DNA from: a virus
Direction: 5' to 3' (one strand)
Virus record (IMG/VR): IMGVR_UViG_3300034135_000002
Span: 1 to 23,606 of that record
DNA: 23,606 nucleotides
Each line of letters opens with the position of its first letter. The stretch's first letter is position 1. The notes beneath the pieces are model-generated. The model searched no databases and was not told the origin of the DNA. It was given only the letters and a program-made list of their open reading frames with translations. This document shows positions 3,040 to 18,476 of the stretch, in pieces. The translations under genes and the position numbers were made by a program.

Positions 3040-3648
3040 ATGGGTAAAGTAAAAATACAAATCAAGTCTATCTGGGGCTCCGTTCTGTTTGAAAGCGAAA
3101 AAGCAGAAACGATTAAGGACGCGGTTTACGAGGCCGACCTATCCGGGGCCGACCTATCCGGGGCCAGCCTACGCGGGGCCGACCTACGCGAGGCCAGCCT
3201 AAACGGGGCCGACCTATACGGGGCCAGCCTATACGGGGCCGACCTATCCGGGGCCGACCTACGCGGGGCCAACCTACGCGAGGCCAGCCTACGCGGGGCC
3301 GACCTACGCGGGGCCAAGGACGCCGACTACGCCATAGCTATGACTCGCATTCTTCCTGAGGGCACCATCACCGGTTGGAAAAAATGCCAAAACGGCGTAA
3401 TCGTAAAACTTCAAATTCCTGCAAGGGCCAAGCGGTCACATGCTTTCGGTCGTAAGTGCCGGGCTGAATATGCAAAAGTCATGCAGATCTATGGTGCTAC
3501 TGAAGCGGTCAGTAGTCACGATTCAAACTTTGTATACCGTAAGGGAGAAACAGTTAAGCCCATAGAACCATTTGACCCGGATTGGACAGATGAATGCTCC
3601 TCAGGGATTCACTTCTTTATTACTCGGCTTGAGGCAGAAAAATACTGA
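3040..3648 (+). CDS. Pentapeptide-repeat protein with DUF5758-like C-terminus
   Basis: 202 aa from ATG 3040 with GGAAGGAG at 3026-3033. Residues 1-31 form a short leader. Residues 32-91 are twelve pentapeptide repeats of type A(D/S/N)LXX, which build a right-handed quadrilateral beta helix. The C-terminal half ([30 protein letters not shown], a [13 protein letters not shown] stretch and [15 protein letters not shown]) matches the DUF5758 domain that often follows pentapeptide repeats in phages. Some pentapeptide proteins mimic DNA and inhibit gyrase, but twelve repeats make a short helix and the role of this architecture is unknown to me. The TGA overlaps the next ATG. Confidence 0.85.
3133..3312 (+). 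repeat. Twelve tandem 15-bp units encoding pentapeptides
   Basis: Units of the form GCC GAC/AGC CTA NNN GGG repeat with almost no synonymous change; variation is concentrated in the fourth codon (TCC, CGC, AAC or TAC) and at D/S/N in the second, and some units have GAG in place of GGG. DNA-level identity this high implies recent unit duplication or active gene conversion within the gene. Confidence 0.9.
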
Positions 3649-4019
3649 TGATAGATAGCCTAGAGAAAAATGAAATATTTGTGTTTGGAAGCAATAAGTC
3701 TGGCCACCATGCGGGAGGAGCAGCTAAGCAGGCCTATGAATCATTCGGAGCTGAATGGGGTGTAGGCAGCGGTAGGACTGGTCAATGCTATGCCATAGAC
3801 ACTATGAGCGGCATCTTTGAGCTGACGAGTAACCTTGAGGATTTCTTGATCTATGCCAAGAGGCACCCAGAGCTCACTTTCCTGTTAACCAAAATAGGCT
3901 GTGGCATTGCTGGATATGAAGAGCGAGAGATCAAAGAACTGTTAGATATAGCCGTACATAGGGTTAATCACTTTTCTGGGGAGGTTCCAGGCAACGTGAT
4001 CAAACCAGAGGACTGGTAA
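3648..4019 (+). CDS. A1S_2505-family phage protein (macro-domain-like)
   Basis: 123 aa, ATG overlapping the preceding TGA. It opens with IFVFGSNKSGHHAGGAAKQA, a pattern shared by the A1S_2505 phage non-structural family and reminiscent of macro domains (FGSN and a Gly-rich loop). The later LLTKIGCGIAGYEEREIKEL segment is the other family hallmark; the GCGIAGY loop resembles the second ligand loop of ADP-ribose-binding folds. The usual family length is about 120-150 aa, so it looks complete. Biochemical role is not established to my knowledge; binding or processing of ADP-ribose or a nucleotide is inference. Confidence 0.78.
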   Translation: MIDSLEKNEIFVFGSNKSGHHAGGAAKQAYESFGAEWGVGSGRTGQCYAIDTMSGIFELTSNLEDFLIYAKRHPELTFLLTKIGCGIAGYEEREIKELLDIAVHRVNHFSGEVPGNVIKPEDW

Positions 4020-10452: not shown

Positions 10453-10584
10453 ATGCCCCCCTTCCGTAAAGAGAAACCCAAAACAATCTACAAAATAGTA
10501 GATGGTCACCTAGTACCCTTCAACACTCCAGATATACCGGAGCAAGTTGAAGGGTGTAGTTGTGTAGATGGTAGTAGCCCCTAG
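10453..10584 (+). CDS. Possible small protein (43 aa) over a strong hairpin
   Basis: The frame from ATG 10453 encodes 43 residues (ending in a GCSCVDGSSP stretch), but the nearest binding site, GGAGG at 10431-10435, is 17 bases upstream, too far. The same DNA contains a 14-pair hairpin at 10513-10557. Either a real small gene or part of the non-coding region that follows. I cannot decide from sequence. Confidence 0.33.
   Translation: MPPFRKEKPKTIYKIVDGHLVPFNTPDIPEQVEGCSCVDGSSP
10513..10557 (+). other. Strong hairpin inside or replacing a small gene
   Basis: 10515-10524 pairs perfectly with 10546-10555 (10 pairs, plus two G-U outside), and after a 1x3 internal loop 10526-10529 pairs with 10539-10542 around a nine-base loop. 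No T tract follows, so it is not an ordinary terminator. It lies just upstream of the promoter-like site at 10602. Confidence 0.6.
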
Positions 10585-10638
10585 CAATTACCCCTTAAAT
10601 ATGCTATGATGCAAGCAACTTGAGGCGTTAGCAATTAC
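10582..10638 (+). repeat. Direct decamer repeat TAGCAATTAC flanking a promoter
   Basis: TAGCAATTAC occurs at 10582-10591 and again at 10629-10638; the core GCAATTA occurs a third time at 10673-10679. The first copy covers the expected -35 position of the promoter at 10602 and the second lies within the terminator hairpin. Two perfect ten-base copies 47 bases apart look like operator sites, although no repressor gene is visible in the window. Confidence 0.55.
10602..10610 (+). promoter_or_regulatory. Extended -10 promoter candidate (TGCTATGAT)
   Basis: TG at 10602-10603, one base, TATGAT at 10605-10610. The -35 position (about 10582-10587) reads TAGCAA, a poor match, as is usual for extended -10 promoters. 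Start would be near 10617, directly before the terminator hairpin at 10623. It shares TGCTA with the site at 16-24. It may serve the late genes or the RNA at 10676. Confidence 0.5.
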
Positions 10639-10658
10639 TGTTGACGCCTTTTTCTTTT
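10623..10658 (+). terminator. Intrinsic terminator just after a promoter-like site
   Basis: AGGCGT at 10623-10628 pairs with ACGCCT at 10644-10649, with CAA/TTG (10632-10634/10641-10643) pairing inside, followed by TTTTTCTTTT to 10658. A clear rho-independent form. It may end upstream transcription, or act on the 10602 transcript as an attenuator that late-gene transcription must pass. Confidence 0.75.
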
Positions 10659-10675
10659 GTATAAAGTTTAAGGCA

Positions 10676-10835
10676 ATTAGTAACCATCAGAGGCTCGTTG
10701 CTTCGGCACGTGTCTAGTACGTTGGATTCATGACTTTGCAGTATGCTAGGAACCTCAAGTTTTTAGTACTCAACCATGCAAGGTACCCACCCACACGGCC
10801 CGTGGACTATCCATGGGCCTCTGATGGAGACTAAT
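10676..10835 (+). ncRNA. Branched structured RNA candidate, unknown class
   Basis: P1 is formed by 10684-10694 with 10817-10827 (11 perfect pairs), extended past a 2x2 internal loop by 10676-10681 with 10830-10835. Inside it: P2, a hairpin capped by a C(TTCG)G tetraloop (10696-10701/10706-10710, T10698 bulged); P5, 10723-10727 with 10809-10813, enclosing P3, a long hairpin (10733-10743, 10746-10753 with 10759-10769, 10777-10784, about 19 pairs), and P4, 10791-10805. The tetraloop and the nested junctions argue strongly for RNA. Stops break all plus frames. It is about 85 bases before the first late gene and some 1.4 kb before TerS. No known class recognised. It is not a tRNA or tmRNA by sequence. 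Confidence 0.65.
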
Positions 10836-10846
10836 ACCCAAGAGAA

Positions 10847-10886
10847 GCTCGTAGGTGAGCAGTCAAAGCCTCAGCAGGCTTATTTG
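10847..10886 (+). other. Two small hairpins after the branched RNA; possible 3' end
   Basis: GCTC/GAGC at 10847-10850/10857-10860, then AAGCCT/AGGCTT at 10866-10871/10876-10881 with a four-base loop followed by ATTTGT. The second has the shape of a weak terminator, and may mark the end of the RNA that starts upstream. The region 10887-10920 only holds the binding site for the next gene. Confidence 0.42.
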
Positions 10887-10920
10887 TCATATCAAAAGTT
10901 ACTAACAAAGGTGGGCAATC

Positions 10921-10983
10921 ATGGACGACATAGAAGTAACCGTAATAGTGGTTGATGATCTTAATAAGGTTAGGGGGTTGTAG
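10921..10983 (+). CDS. Twenty-residue frame before the late genes
   Basis: ATG 10921 follows AAGGTGGG at 10908-10915, well placed, and the frame ends at TAG 10981-10983, next to the GTG of the following gene. The product is acidic (MDDIEVTVIVVDDLNKVRGL). It may be a leader peptide that couples translation to the next gene rather than a functional protein. Its last codons hold the GGGGG used by GTG 10984. Confidence 0.4.
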   Translation: MDDIEVTVIVVDDLNKVRGL

Positions 10984-11226
10984 GTGAAAACAGATCCACT
11001 AACGGGAATAAAGATAGTCTACGACAAGCGCATCAAAGTAGGTTATTCACGCTGGGATAACAAAGGTAGGTTCTTGCGCATGAACCCAAAGACAAAGCCA
11101 ACTTTAGAAAGAGGCATTGCTTACGCCAACGCCCAGCACATGTTTAAGCGGCTAGACTTACGTGGCTATTACTCGCCTCAAGTACTGCTCAACCCTCCTA
11201 TATTACTTACGAAAGGTATCGCATGA
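10984..11226 (+). CDS. Small basic protein of unknown function (80 aa)
   Basis: GTG start at 10984 with AGGGGG at 10972-10977. Basic, with KRIKVGYSRWDNKGRFLRMN and RLDLRGYYSPQVLL, probably beta-rich. First full gene after the 10676 RNA; ends in an ATGA overlap. No family recognised. Confidence 0.62.
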   Translation: MKTDPLTGIKIVYDKRIKVGYSRWDNKGRFLRMNPKTKPTLERGIAYANAQHMFKRLDLRGYYSPQVLLNPPILLTKGIA

Positions 11227-11600
11227 CCAACCAAGACCACAAAGCCATATTAGGGCGTGCTATAAAGAAGGCTATTAGTAATGGATGGCAACCTTACGAG
11301 GGCATAGACTCCTCGATGCTTGCATGGGATATATCAAGAACACGCGTCATCTTCCGCTATAAAGACATAGCGCCGCTGGGCGAACATTCTTGGTATGGCA
11401 TGATGTTCAGCCATGAGTTCGCAAAAGCTTTATGGGGCGAGGAAAGAGAGTGGAACGTGGCTGGGCGCGAAGAGGAGGACGGTTCTGGCTATAGTGGTTA
11501 CGTAATTCCATATTGGCAGGGAATGCTCCAGCAAATGGTCGTAGCCAAAGATCGTATAGCCTACCTAGCCTCCCACCTGCCAGTAGAGGAGAGCGAATAG
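11223..11600 (+). CDS. Conserved-looking phage protein of unknown function (125 aa)
   Basis: ATG 11223 overlaps the previous TGA. Typical traits of a common phage accessory protein are FSHEFAKALWGEE near the centre and, towards the end, YWQGMLQQMVVAKDRIAYLASHL. I recall similar 'HDFAKALWG ... LQQMV...YL' proteins in many phages without a known role. Soluble, no Cys. Ends directly at the ATG of the next gene. Confidence 0.72.
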   Translation: MTNQDHKAILGRAIKKAISNGWQPYEGIDSSMLAWDISRTRVIFRYKDIAPLGEHSWYGMMFSHEFAKALWGEEREWNVAGREEEDGSGYSGYVIPYWQGMLQQMVVAKDRIAYLASHLPVEESE

Positions 11601-12055: not shown

Positions 12056-12285
12056 TGGCAGAACGTATAGACATTTCAGACCAATTAAACGAGGACTTCT
12101 TTAAAAGTGAGTTCGCTAGCAAGGGTAAGATACTAACTTTCCAGATAGAAGATGACCGCCAAAGCTTTAAGATCGTACGCATGAATAGAGGCAAGATGAT
12201 CTGTGAAGTAGTACCAGTAGAGCTAACTCAGCTGAAAGAGGATGAGATATTGAAGGAGGTAGACCGTGGCGCACGCAGGAGGTAG
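12055..12285 (+). CDS. Small protein upstream of TerS (76 aa)
   Basis: AAGGAGG at 12041-12047 precedes ATG 12055. Charged and mostly beta-like (KILTFQIEDDRQSFKIVRMNRGKMICEVVPVE) with an Arg-rich end. It overlaps the TerS gene by 20 bases, so it belongs to the packaging operon. Role unknown. Confidence 0.65.
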   Translation: MAERIDISDQLNEDFFKSEFASKGKILTFQIEDDRQSFKIVRMNRGKMICEVVPVELTQLKEDEILKEVDRGARRR

Positions 12286-12688
12286 GCCAACCAAGCTAAG
12301 CCAGGCCCTAATAGATGCCGCAGCCAGGCACGTCGATGAGTTTGATGTGTCGACAGCAACTCTGCTACCAACAATTGAAGGATTAGCCTTAGAGCTGAAC
12401 ATCAGCAGGGACACTGTGTACGACTGGGAAAAGGTACCGGAAGCTACTGACAATAACGCTGAAGACGTGGAACTACACCTTCAGTTTTCCTACATCGTTA
12501 GTAATTTACGGTCAAAGCAAGCTTATAAACTTATACAAAATAGCCTCGTTAACAGATACAACCCTACCATAGCCAAGCTAATTCTAAGCGGCAAGCATGG
12601 GTATATAGAGAAGAGTGAAGTAGACCAGAAGCTTACTGGCAACGTAGCGTTTATTAACGATGTGCCAAGACCGAAGAATACAAAGTGA
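12266..12688 (+). CDS. terS: Terminase small subunit
   Basis: 140 aa from GTG 12266, with GAAGGAGG at 12252-12259. The N-terminus GGRPTKLSQALIDAA, followed by LALELNISRDTVYDWEKV, is the DNA-binding helix-turn-helix of small terminases that recognises the packaging site. The centre (LQFSYIVSNLRSKQAYKLIQNSLVNRYNPTIAKLILSGKHGY) is the helical oligomerisation region, with the typical '...KLILSNKHGY' end. It sits just ahead of the large subunit, as usual. Confidence 0.85.
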   Translation: MAHAGGRPTKLSQALIDAAARHVDEFDVSTATLLPTIEGLALELNISRDTVYDWEKVPEATDNNAEDVELHLQFSYIVSNLRSKQAYKLIQNSLVNRYNPTIAKLILSGKHGYIEKSEVDQKLTGNVAFINDVPRPKNTK

Positions 12689-12697
12689 GCAGCACAT

Positions 12698-14035
12698 ATG
12701 CAGATTAAGGTGCCCGATTATACGGCTTCTGATCGGCAGACCGTTTTTCACACTACTGTCGCAGACGAGAAGTTATACGGCGGGGCAGCAGGTGGTGGCA
12801 AGACTGCTGCTATAGTTGCTGAGAGCGGCACTATAGCCTTAGAACATCCTGGCATACCCATCAATCTATTTAGGCGCACTATTCCAGAGCTGAAGGCCAC
12901 TATCATACCTGAGATCAACAAACAGTTTGGCGCATACATTAGAGCCGGACACATGACGTGGCACGGGCAAGACCGTAAGTTCATATTGACTAATGGCTCT
13001 AGCCTCATTCTCAACTACCTAGACAACGATAATGACATCTATCGCTACCAGGGTTCAGAAATGCCGGTTATAGGTGTAGATGAGCTTACACAATTCCCGC
13101 AGGCTTGGATAGAGTATCTGCTGACTCGTAACCGTACGAGCAACCCGGACTGGCCGGTAATGTTTATCGCTGGTACAAACCCTGGGGGTATAGGCCATGG
13201 CTGGGTTAAATCCCGTTTTATTGACCCCGTACCTGCTGAACATATAAACATAGTAAACCTTGATGGAGGGCAGGCAGTGACCCGTGTGTTTATCCCGGCT
13301 AAGGTAGACGACCATCCTAACCAGAAGTTTAAAGAGGATTATTCCCGAAAGCTTGCCGCTATTAGCGACCCCCAGTTAAGACGGGCGCTACGTGACGGGG
13401 ACTGGGATGTATTCGCAGGGCAGGTGTTCAAGGAGTTCCGCAGAGATGTGCATGTTATCGACCCGTTCGCTATCCCCAAGCACTGGCAGCGTTGGAGGGC
13501 GATGGACTATGGGAACAAAAACAGCATCGGGTGGTTTGCTCAAGACCCTATGTCGGAGCGCATCTACATGTACCGTGAGTACCGAACCGAAGAGTTTGTA
13601 GATATACCAAGCAAGTCCAAGCTAGTTAAACAATTTGACGCGGGCGAAGACATTCATTATGGGCTAGCTGACCCTGCCATATGGAACGGGCAAGGCGACC
13701 ATAACACAGGTAAATCCATAGCTCAGATGTTCATTGACGAACAAGTTACTTGGATGCCAGCAAATAACGACCGCAAAGCTGGGCTGGCCGTGGTGCATGA
13801 CCACCTGAGTATCGCCAAAGATGGGTTACCAAAGCTCCAGATCTTTAGCACGTGCACCAGCATAATCCGTACCCTACCTTCGCTCCCGTACGACAAGATT
13901 AGGGTAGATGATGTGGACACCAAGGCTGATGATCACGACTACGACATGCTGCGCTATGCCCTTATGAATTTTGTTGCTCCAGTCGAGGAAGACGAAGACG
14001 CATCAACAGGTAACATACAAAGCTTATGGAGGTAG
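12698..14035 (+). CDS. terL: Terminase large subunit (ATPase/nuclease)
   Basis: 445 aa, normal length. Walker A GAAGGGKT at 29-36 and Walker B PVIGVDE at 123-129 (Asp128, Glu129) drive DNA translocation; AGTNPGG at 158-164 is the coupling motif. The C-terminal RNase H-like nuclease that cuts the concatemer has Asp270 (AMDYG), Asp325 (LADPA) and Asp414/Asp416 (DDHDYDML) as likely metal ligands. It works with TerS and the portal as the packaging motor. Starts nine bases after TerS. Confidence 0.93.
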   Translation: MQIKVPDYTASDRQTVFHTTVADEKLYGGAAGGGKTAAIVAESGTIALEHPGIPINLFRRTIPELKATIIPEINKQFGAYIRAGHMTWHGQDRKFILTNGSSLILNYLDNDNDIYRYQGSEMPVIGVDELTQFPQAWIEYLLTRNRTSNPDWPVMFIAGTNPGGIGHGWVKSRFIDPVPAEHINIVNLDGGQAVTRVFIPAKVDDHPNQKFKEDYSRKLAAISDPQLRRALRDGDWDVFAGQVFKEFRRDVHVIDPFAIPKHWQRWRAMDYGNKNSIGWFAQDPMSERIYMYREYRTEEFVDIPSKSKLVKQFDAGEDIHYGLADPAIWNGQGDHNTGKSIAQMFIDEQVTWMPANNDRKAGLAVVHDHLSIAKDGLPKLQIFSTCTSIIRTLPSLPYDKIRVDDVDTKADDHDYDMLRYALMNFVAPVEEDEDASTGNIQSLWR

Positions 14036-14478: not shown

Positions 14479-16398
14479 TTGGCCGCACAACTCGACGAAA
14501 AAGACGTTTTCGATGCTCTTCGAGATAGCTCTGCGTACATGGCTCCTTTGTTCGAGCCGCTGGATGAGTACGACCGGATTGCCCGTAACAAGCCTCATCC
14601 CAACACGGATAAGTCATACCCTAAAGTCACTGACGGTAGCACCTCTGCTATCATCAACAAAACTCCTCGGAGAATAATTCAACAGCTCCCTAGCGGGACT
14701 ATAACCAGCGACGCCGATGATTGGCTTTCCTTAGTCGCTGGTTTTTGTTTGACCAACATCATCCTACCGAACTGTAACGAAGATTTCGCGCTCCTGCAGA
14801 AGGATTGGTTGGTCGTAAAGAAAGCACTCACCTTTGGGTCACAACCGGCATATGTACCGCTTGTGTTCAGAGGTGATTACTTTGGCCCTGACATGACCAT
14901 CCCCTTCATTAAGGACGTTCTCTATCAGCCAGGCAAGAACTCCGACTTAGCATCGAACTACGTCTTTATGCGCTCATGGTGGCAGACCTCGGATATAGAA
15001 GGTCTTATTCAGCGTGAGAAACGGCTGGAGAAAAAAGCCACCGAGCGTAAAGAGAAGTACGTATCAGAGTGGGACTTGAGCGCTCTTGAATCTATCAAGA
15101 AAGAAATCACTGCCAAGAACTCCGAAGACCAAGCCCCGAGCGAGAAAGCTAGGGACTACCAAGCTAGTGGCGTAGAGATCATGCACTGTTTCCAGCGCGG
15201 TGTAGGCTCTGAGTTCTTCTCCTTTCATCCCAAGACTAAAAAGATTGTCCGTACAAAAAAGAACAAAGACCCTCGGGGTGACATCCCGCTTATATCCATG
15301 TACTCCGATACAGACGGCTCTAACCCATTAGGCTGGGGACTTGCTGAGCAACTCGCACCTATGCAGAACCTCATGGACGCTGAGCTACAGATGTACCAGT
15401 TCGAGAAAGCCTTAGGTCTCCAGCCTCCGACTATTAAGCGTGGCACCTGGAACAAGTCACAGGCCAAGCTCATACCAAACGCCCTTATTGATCTAGGTAC
15501 TAATCCGGGCAACTCATGGGAAGTACTAAAGCGTGACACCAACGCACTTGCTCAGTTCGCCGCCAACTACGGGCTGATGAAATCTCAGTTACTCAACTTA
15601 GCCTCCAGCCCTGATACCTCTATCAGCTCAGAAATAGGCAACCCTGGATTTTCTAAGACTGACTCAGGCGTGAAGCAACTCGCTCAGAACGTATCAGTTG
15701 ATGACAACTTTGTTAGCAAACAGTACGCCACCTTTAAGGAGCGATGGTCTGAGACGGCTATAAATCTTTACTTTGCTGAACGCACCGGCATACAGGAAAT
15801 CCAGTTGGACAAAGCCACCGCCTCTAAGGTACGCGAACTTAACCCTGGTGCAGTAAGCGATGACAACAAGGTACGCATCGACTTTGATACAGAAACTCAG
15901 AAGCTGAAGTTTGAAGTAGACGCTAGCTCTTCTCGCATGAAGGACAACTCCGTACAGCTAGAAGCTCTGGACGGTCTACTAACTCGGCTTGAGAAATCTA
16001 CCGTGCTACAGGGAATCATCCCGCAACGAAAGATCGTTGGTGCATGGAACAGGATAGTCGCCGCTTCCGGCGTTGAAGACCCCGAAGACATGTCCCTGTC
16101 CGATGAAGAGCTAGACCAAATGGAAGCGGAGCAGCAAGCCCAGGCTGAAGCTCAAGCAGCCCAGCAACAGCAACAAATGCAGGCCCAGGCAGCACAACAG
16201 GAGCAGATGGCCGCCCAACAGTCCCAGCCCCCCATGGAGCAAATGCCTCAGCAACCACAGATAGACCCAGAGGACGCAGCCTTTATCCAAGAGCTTCAGG
16301 CTCTTGGATATGACGAGGCACGCATCCAGCAGGCCATGCAAATGCTGGCAGCTGATCTTCCTGAAGAGCAAATCATTAATGCGATAGGGCCAGCGTAA
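14479..16398 (+). CDS. Portal protein
   Basis: 639 aa, start TTG 14479: the frame has a stop at 14446 and no other start before residue 21, and the next ATG (14539) lacks a binding site. Position after TerL, size and order fit a portal, the dodecameric ring at the capsid vertex that forms the DNA channel. Features include an N-terminal SSAYMAPLFEPLDEYDRI region, a central NPLGWGLAEQLAPMQNLMDAELQMYQ helix pair, and a Gln/Ala-rich stretch at 548-594 that may form the barrel or tail of the channel. The last 45 residues (FIQELQALGYDEARIQQAMQ) resemble a UBA-like helical fold. Structural identity is inferred from context plus motifs. Confidence 0.78.
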   Translation: MAAQLDEKDVFDALRDSSAYMAPLFEPLDEYDRIARNKPHPNTDKSYPKVTDGSTSAIINKTPRRIIQQLPSGTITSDADDWLSLVAGFCLTNIILPNCNEDFALLQKDWLVVKKALTFGSQPAYVPLVFRGDYFGPDMTIPFIKDVLYQPGKNSDLASNYVFMRSWWQTSDIEGLIQREKRLEKKATERKEKYVSEWDLSALESIKKEITAKNSEDQAPSEKARDYQASGVEIMHCFQRGVGSEFFSFHPKTKKIVRTKKNKDPRGDIPLISMYSDTDGSNPLGWGLAEQLAPMQNLMDAELQMYQFEKALGLQPPTIKRGTWNKSQAKLIPNALIDLGTNPGNSWEVLKRDTNALAQFAANYGLMKSQLLNLASSPDTSISSEIGNPGFSKTDSGVKQLAQNVSVDDNFVSKQYATFKERWSETAINLYFAERTGIQEIQLDKATASKVRELNPGAVSDDNKVRIDFDTETQKLKFEVDASSSRMKDNSVQLEALDGLLTRLEKSTVLQGIIPQRKIVGAWNRIVAASGVEDPEDMSLSDEELDQMEAEQQAQAEAQAAQQQQQMQAQAAQQEQMAAQQSQPPMEQMPQQPQIDPEDAAFIQELQALGYDEARIQQAMQMLAADLPEEQIINAIGPA

Positions 16399-17627: not shown

Positions 17628-18476
17628 ATGCCTACTTACAGCCAAAACTACGCGACTGACGTACTGGGCAAGATTGACGAACGAGTCTACCTTGATTCAG
17701 TTACGAAGGACGTAATCAACAATGGTGTTGAGCTAGAGTTCAGCAACGGTAACAACGCCGTAACCATCTACCAGATGGAAGTTGTAACAGAGAATGACTA
17801 CCAGCGCTCCGGAACTATGCGTTACGGACAGTTGGTAGAGCTTGGTAACGCTGTGCAGACATTCGTACTGTCACAGGACAAGTCTTTCGCTATCTCTATA
17901 GACCGAGGTAACCGAGAAGACGCCAAGATGGTTCCAGCAATCAACGAAGCAGTTAAGCGTCAGGTTCGTGAAGTCTCTGTTCCTACAGTAGACACATACC
18001 GCCTAGCAATCGCCGGAGCATACGCAGTTGCTAACTCACAAGGTGCAACAGCCGCTCTGACATCTAGCAACACGTTTGCTAAGATTCTTGACCAGCGTGC
18101 AGCTTTGCAGGAAGCAAAAGTTAAGCTTGGCAACATCGTCGTATTCGTTACGCCGACAGTCGAGGCTTACCTATGGCTAGACACTACCTTCAAGCAAGCT
18201 ACCGACCGTTCAACAGCCGACAAGGCTAGCGGTAAGCTTGGCACAGTTATGGGCATGGACGTATATACCGTTCCTAGCACTTACCTCCCTGCAAACTTTG
18301 GTTTCTTGATGATGGCTAAGGACGTTCTGATTGCTCCTACCAAGTTCAACAAGATTAAGACTATGGACGGTGATTACTTTGGTATCGATGGAATGGTTGG
18401 CTTCGGTCGCCGCTACTACGACTGCTTCATCACCTCGAACAGCGGCATTAGACTCCGTTACCACAAGATCGCCTAG
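17628..18476 (+). CDS. Major capsid protein (HK97-like fold expected)
   Basis: 282 aa, GAGGA at 17614-17618. The N-terminus (VLGKIDERVYLDSVT), the EFSNGNNAVTIYQMEVV segment, NDYQRSGTMRYGQLVELGN and FAISIDRGNREDAKMV stretch match a group of phage capsid proteins found mostly in Firmicutes and metagenomic siphovirus or podovirus genomes; VPTVDTYRLA is also typical. It should form the icosahedral shell. Short length (no N-terminal delta domain) fits a separate scaffold, seen just upstream. Confidence 0.88.
   Translation: MPTYSQNYATDVLGKIDERVYLDSVTKDVINNGVELEFSNGNNAVTIYQMEVVTENDYQRSGTMRYGQLVELGNAVQTFVLSQDKSFAISIDRGNREDAKMVPAINEAVKRQVREVSVPTVDTYRLAIAGAYAVANSQGATAALTSSNTFAKILDQRAALQEAKVKLGNIVVFVTPTVEAYLWLDTTFKQATDRSTADKASGKLGTVMGMDVYTVPSTYLPANFGFLMMAKDVLIAPTKFNKIKTMDGDYFGIDGMVGFGRRYYDCFITSNSGIRLRYHKIA

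Follow-up and report, generated by a model that had tools for sequence, protein, structure and literature searches.

What is the structured stretch that lies between the early and the late genes of this virus, and what might it do there? The window analyzed here is the whole 23,606-nucleotide virus record (23.6 kb). A preliminary description, made from the letters of the window alone, had proposed that positions 10676-10835, which precede the late module, encode a structured noncoding RNA outside the known classes, and the fold, the pair probabilities and the Rfam scans reported below support this proposal. The element occupies part of a 474-nt intergenic gap. Upstream of it are small early ORFs, including one for a Rad52/Erf-type annealing protein, and downstream are genes for TerS (12266-12688, a PHROG match, 1.4 kb from the element), TerL (12698-14035, related to annotated large terminases), a large ORF at the place expected for the portal (14479-16398, to which PHROG gave no match) and the major head protein (17628-18476). 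No coding frame runs through the element; stops are present in all three plus frames inside it, as had been claimed. Elsewhere in the window, positions 3040-3648 hold an ORF with tandem 15-bp repeats encoding A(D/N/S)L-type pentapeptide repeats.

Refolding, which the preliminary description had proposed as a check together with an Rfam search, gave a strong fold. The minimum free energy (MFE) of 10676-10835 was -62.2 kcal/mol compared to -41.1 ± 4.1 kcal/mol for dinucleotide shuffles (z = -5.12), and none of 200 shuffles was as stable, in agreement with the claim of a nested fold of 160 bases. The minus strand folded less well (-55.0, z = -3.05) than the plus strand (z = -5.1), and this is consistent with the G-U pairs in the interior hairpins. 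The closing stem (P1) is made of two helices separated by a 2x2 internal loop, AA/AG. The outer helix pairs 10676-10681 with 10830-10835 (6 bp, pair probabilities of 0.60-1.0, the outermost pair having 0.60) and corresponds to the six-pair extension noticed earlier. The inner helix (CCAUCAGAGGC/GCCUCUGAUGG) had been described as 11 pairs long; of these, the seven between 10684-10690 and 10821-10827 were near-certain (p of 0.99-1.0), while the last four, which reach 10694/10817 in one of two folds, compete with neighboring hairpins, with p falling from 0.61 to 0.23. The near-certain pairs of P1 are all Watson-Crick. The 3' strand of P1, including internal-loop bases 10828-10829, spans 10821-10835.

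Inside this stem the predictions were less uniform. The hairpin P2 (10691-10715), capped by C(UUCG)G, had pair probabilities of about 0.33-0.67, so that at about 0.66 the capped hairpin of the preliminary description holds in part. In the long hairpin P3 (10733-10784), previously counted as roughly 19 pairs, the distal segment (10746-10753/10759-10766) was certain at p of 0.99-1.0 and the proximal segment reached only about 0.6. A hairpin adjoining the 3' strand of P1, P4 (10797-10819), pairs 10797-10806 with 10810-10819 (p of 0.63-0.94), and because of this pairing the fourth helix that had been suggested between 10723-10727 and 10809-10813 had a probability of 0. Two distinct interiors were near-isoenergetic, at -61.3 and -61.2 kcal/mol (within 0.1). 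The element is thus predicted to be a well-folded branched RNA domain with a long closing stem and an uncertain interior. Taken together with the results below, the earlier observation is partly confirmed and its interpretation partly supported.

We compared this fold with what chance and the rest of the window offer. A closing stem this good was found anywhere in the whole window in 1.8% of 1000 Markov shuffles using an ungapped score, and in 3.3% of 600 Markov shuffles of the whole window using a stacking-energy score; P1 itself falls within the small noncoding fraction of the window. By raw MFE, 10676-10835 ranked 8th among 1173 windows of 160 nt, indicating that the element is not unique. 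The intergenic region 815-931 was also strongly structured (z = -5.4). At the left end of the record, 75-220 showed three successive strong hairpins (z = -7.9), at least one of them terminator-like, and a second branched RNA candidate with the inner stem AACCAGCAAC/GTTGCTGGTT was seen at 990-1104, beside 821-925 (z = -2.2). The closing stem of the element survived most flanking contexts tried. It was weakened to p = 0.35 on folding 10617-11240, and on folding 10500-11100 a long-range alternative was favored over it by 3.3 kcal/mol.

The immediate surroundings of the element contain candidate signals for transcription and translation. An extended -10-like motif (TGCTATGAT, 10602-10610, plus strand) with a weak -35, detected by a scan for TGnTATAAT-type motifs with an adjacent hairpin, is a possible late promoter; a sigma-70 consensus scan called no promoter at 10602-10610. 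Directly 3' of this motif, the terminator scan identified an intrinsic terminator (10622-10659, fold z = -4.5) composed of a 12-pair hairpin at 10622-10650 and a U-run to 10659, and the element lies downstream of both. Beyond the element, the same scan found a weak terminator-like hairpin at 10866-10881, and the stability of the region 10836-10900 did not exceed that of shuffles (z = -0.96). After the RNA, the first candidate start codon, 85 nt from P1, belongs to a 20-codon ORF (10921-10983) with a Shine-Dalgarno-like AAAGGTGG upstream. This layout, in which an intrinsic terminator comes within tens of bases after an extended -10 motif, recurs ahead of late genes: it was seen at 10602-10659 of the window, at G002:23609 and downstream (by motif scan), and at L005:2851-2900 and L026:6230-6300 (both spotted by eye). 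This recurrence suggests that late transcription may depend on antitermination.

Homologues of the element were then sought in several ways. BLASTN of 10600-10920 against 50,697 phage records gave no match, nor did a comparison of the same segment with the whole records of seven relatives, a search that carried no positive control. Relatives could be found through TerL and portal, with TerL identities of 64-81% at the amino-acid level, and showed no matching DNA at the RNA locus; the 125-aa ORF at 11223-11600 retrieved none. Two Rfam scans at E up to 10 returned nothing relevant to the element, and ARAGORN called no tRNA or tmRNA in the window. A covariance model built from the single sequence (R3) recovered only the query from 1.13 Mb of related loci. 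The exact inner-stem pattern CATCAGAGGCN{100,130}GCCTCTGATG had one match in IMG/VR (L110), which was rejected as a chance inverted repeat in unrelated surroundings. By these comparisons the element is an orphan with no detectable relatives, and for want of a homologue in which to test covariation it stays a candidate new phage RNA.

The TerL genes of relatives provided a separate observation. In three lineages, otherwise intact TerL genes carry a single in-frame TAA inside the Walker A motif (L005:5145-5162, L006:5187-5204, L009:6676-6693 and, on the minus strand, L112:6395-6412), in the context GGN GGT TAA GGY GGN AAR. A one-stop ribosomal hop, with the same glycine tRNA on both sides, could bypass the six additional bases, or the stop could be read through. 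According to a review, no natural hop over an in-frame stop is known, and the terminase of phage Hau3 may use bypassing (PMC5009743). In L005 an HNH-like ORF lies just upstream.

Do relatives carry RNAs of similar architecture? A stem scan of the window (W) and its close low-GC relatives (G001-G004, G006 and L025-L028) found 12 long closing stems with a score of 36 or more, compared to about 1.25 in shuffles, and by inspection they lie between genes. Stems placed just before a start codon were seen in L009 (3293-3430) and in the copies of an RNA that we refer to as family A. The L009 stem is part of a long-stem branched leader RNA that, along with a promoter-like motif, directly precedes a glutaredoxin/NrdH-like ORF with a CSPC motif (3420-3665).

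Family A was collected with the pattern GCTGGTAGTAAN{55,85}TTGCTACTAG, which matched nine contigs. Eight of the nine were true members, seven of them distinct (L106 duplicates L101), and L104 was an unrelated match; L028 is a further member beyond the pattern contigs. The members are L101:9240-9360, L102:7634-7753, L109:10056-10193 and L028:199-395 on the plus strand, and L103:6472-6589, L105:1064-1183, L107:4419-4544 and L108:3486-3612 on the minus strand. In these RNAs an outer helix, in which compensatory changes occur, is followed by an internal loop and by an inner helix (GUGCUGGUAGUAA/UUGCUACUAGCAC) that is invariant, its two G-U pairs included; the interior is hypervariable. The covariation score of 0.206, compared to 0.102 in shuffles, was reached by none of 500 shuffles. 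Neither Rfam, in which no entry matched the members, nor BLASTN of one member against annotated phages, which gave no real match, contained a counterpart. On this comparative evidence, family A is a real, covarying RNA family new to Rfam. Within the window, 818-932 matched the family A model R1 with 21.9 bits (E = 0.0017 in the window, filters off), and by this score 821-925 is a diverged member of the family. On the reverse strand of L103, three long-stem branched RNAs occur in tandem (1116-1285, 1301-1467 and 1572-1681); the last is a family A member, and the other two have inner stems similar to its own. The element at 10676-10835 resembles family A in having a closing stem interrupted by a small internal loop, a structured and variable interior, an intergenic location and no Rfam entry. 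It differs in lacking the fixed inner helix GUGCUGGUAGUAA/UUGCUACUAGCAC, and R1 run with filters off gave no match to it at E up to 10. A MAFFT alignment of the element with family A was discarded as a chance alignment.

A second group, family B, was found through a 22-mer, GAGTGGCGGAATAGGTAGACGC, from the D-arm of a class II, leucine-like tRNA. Among the 69 contigs with this 22-mer, ARAGORN called a tRNA in 13, and the stem scan found a closing stem in 47, a few of which are ordinary tRNAs. Family B retains the D-arm sequence GAGUGGCGGAAUAGGUAGACGC and a T-loop that reads UGCAAAU (with G where tRNAs have psi55) or contains inserts. The acceptor stem continues for 8-26 bp, and a variable region with no normal anticodon loop replaces the anticodon arm. 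In an alignment of 18 members, P1, the D-stem and the T-stem contained 114 compensatory cells, and the covariation score was 0.610 compared to 0.196 in shuffles (0 of 500). With no match in Rfam, family B is a real, widespread, covarying tRNA-Leu-like phage RNA new to that database. Examples are L139:12140-12289 (plus), L130:977-1128 (minus) and L005:1145-1255 (plus), as well as two unannotated copies in named phages, one between tRNA-Arg genes of Lactobacillus phage Lenus (L181:1487-1608, plus) and one near the record end of Enterococcus phage VEsP-1 (L182:1487-1707, plus). Record G002 (L017) has two intergenic RNAs with uninterrupted closing stems of 24 and 21 bp, at 12533-12759, itself a family B member, and at 13662-13762. 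In the family B member L134, the helix GUGCUGGUAGUGAG/CUUACUACCAGCAC is nearly the same as the family A helix, and on this basis the two families may be related. A reading of all these RNAs as leaders was dropped, since a Shine-Dalgarno sequence and ORF followed 13 of 45 family B members, compared to 19% of random positions. A literature search found no description of these phage RNAs.

The element shares with family B a long closing stem with a hairpin (10797-10819) beside the 3' strand of P1. It has, however, neither the D-arm sequence UGGCGGAAUAGGUAGACGC nor the UGCAAAU T-loop, and the family B model R2 gave it no significant match (4.9 bits on the plus strand, E = 8.7, and 6.2 bits on the minus strand). 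Since the element fails both R1 and R2 and shares architecture only, we filed it under neither family.

Our preferred reading, to which we assign a probability of roughly 0.4, is that the element is a structured leader or intergenic domain of the late mRNA, with its long stem acting as a double-stranded processing or stabilizing site. This reading draws on the strong plus-strand fold with its near-certain closing stem, the placement after a terminator and before the late module in a segment where every plus frame has stops, and the richness of close low-GC relatives in long closing stems, several of them shortly ahead of a start codon. Family A shows a conserved, covarying stem around a hypervariable interior, which fits the stem being the functional part of such elements. 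We infer transcription, read-through, processing and stabilization of the element as follows. RNA polymerase would start near 10617, or read through from upstream, and would pass the promoter-proximal terminator, probably by means of antitermination. The branched domain would then be transcribed, untranslated, ahead of the first late ORF. Its functional part would be the closing stem of 13-17 bp with the small internal loop, which could give host RNase III-type processing a double-stranded target or be no more than a 5' barrier. The stem could thereby fix the 5' end of the processed late mRNA and govern how stable that mRNA is. The branched interior may be a spacer that evolves fast, or a small RNA that is cut out. 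Against this reading, the stem (6 plus 7 to 11 bp) is shorter than in most of the relatives' elements, and its 85-nt distance to the start codon contrasts with the short distances in several relatives. The likeness to those elements is architectural only.

Among the alternatives, we take most seriously, though we consider it unlikely, a free-standing gene for a trans-acting small RNA that has the broad architecture of families A and B without their conserved sequences, either through loss or from the outset. The genome does use such RNAs, as the diverged family A member at 821-925 indicates, and the layout shared with the element comprises a P1 with an internal loop and a GAG/CTC step, and a hairpin adjoining its 3' strand. 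The GAG/CTC step is, however, weak evidence, and the outcome with both models and the missing D-arm and T-loop sequences argue against this reading. A more sweeping form of it, which would make the element a highly diverged member of one phage RNA superfamily (families A and B) of stable trans-acting RNAs whose core, tRNA-like or branched, is enclosed by an extended acceptor-like stem, seems to us quite improbable; if true, such RNAs might for example serve to decoy host enzymes that handle tRNAs, or defence nucleases. We rank below the free-standing gene, as rather doubtful, a cis regulator of late transcription or translation, for example an antiterminator of the put type, or a riboregulator for which the two interiors would be alternative states. 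Their equal energies, the leader position and the weak terminator-like hairpin at 10866-10881 would suit such a role, but that hairpin is no better than shuffles and there is no conserved ligand-like core. The antiterminator role, raised in the preliminary description, meets the difficulty that the sole strong terminator is upstream of the element and not downstream, so that an RNA made later cannot act on it in the manner of put.

The palindromic character of P1 admits a DNA-level explanation, to which we give somewhat less credence than to a cis regulator: a widely spaced inverted repeat could bind a protein for packaging, replication or regulation, with the RNA fold as a by-product. An all Watson-Crick stem is equally palindromic in DNA, and TerS is 1.4 kb downstream; phage packaging sites, however, are usually closer to terS than this, and the G-U pairs of the interior exist in the plus-strand RNA alone, the strand that folds better. 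Lower still, on a par with the superfamily, we place a chance structure in the 474-nt gap. The missing homologues, the equal stems in about 2-3% of shuffled windows and the seven other 160-nt windows with a lower raw MFE speak for chance, and they are opposed by the location of the stem in the small noncoding fraction and by a domain z of -5.1 with 0 of 200 shuffles. A phi29-type packaging RNA, another role that had been put forward, we regard as scarcely credible, as its position ahead of packaging genes is all that favors it, while a TerS/TerL pair is present and Rfam gave no pRNA match at E up to 10.

Taken alone, the element is a moderate find, one orphan structured RNA and candidate leader, and the greater value lies in families A and B. 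Genomes of this phage group each carry several branched RNAs with long stems, among which at least two groups are covarying families without an Rfam entry. The occurrence of family B in cultured Lactobacillus and Enterococcus phages makes its function directly testable.

Among known systems, phi29 pRNA is likewise a multi-helix phage RNA near packaging genes, but it belongs to another packaging system and its covariance model does not match the element. The put RNAs of HK022, short elements of two hairpins, precede the terminators that they suppress; the element is similarly a structured leader RNA of a phage operon, and differs in having its strong terminator upstream and only a weak hairpin downstream. 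The RNase III processing stems of phage mRNAs, such as the promoter-proximal or intergenic R-sites of T7, share with it a long irregular stem with a small internal loop, placed between genes of a polycistronic transcript. Those stems end in a simple loop, whereas P1 encloses a branched interior of 130 nt, and with 6 bp, a 2x2 loop and 7 to 11 bp it lies at the lower edge of the near-continuous stem of about two helical turns expected of an RNase III processing site.
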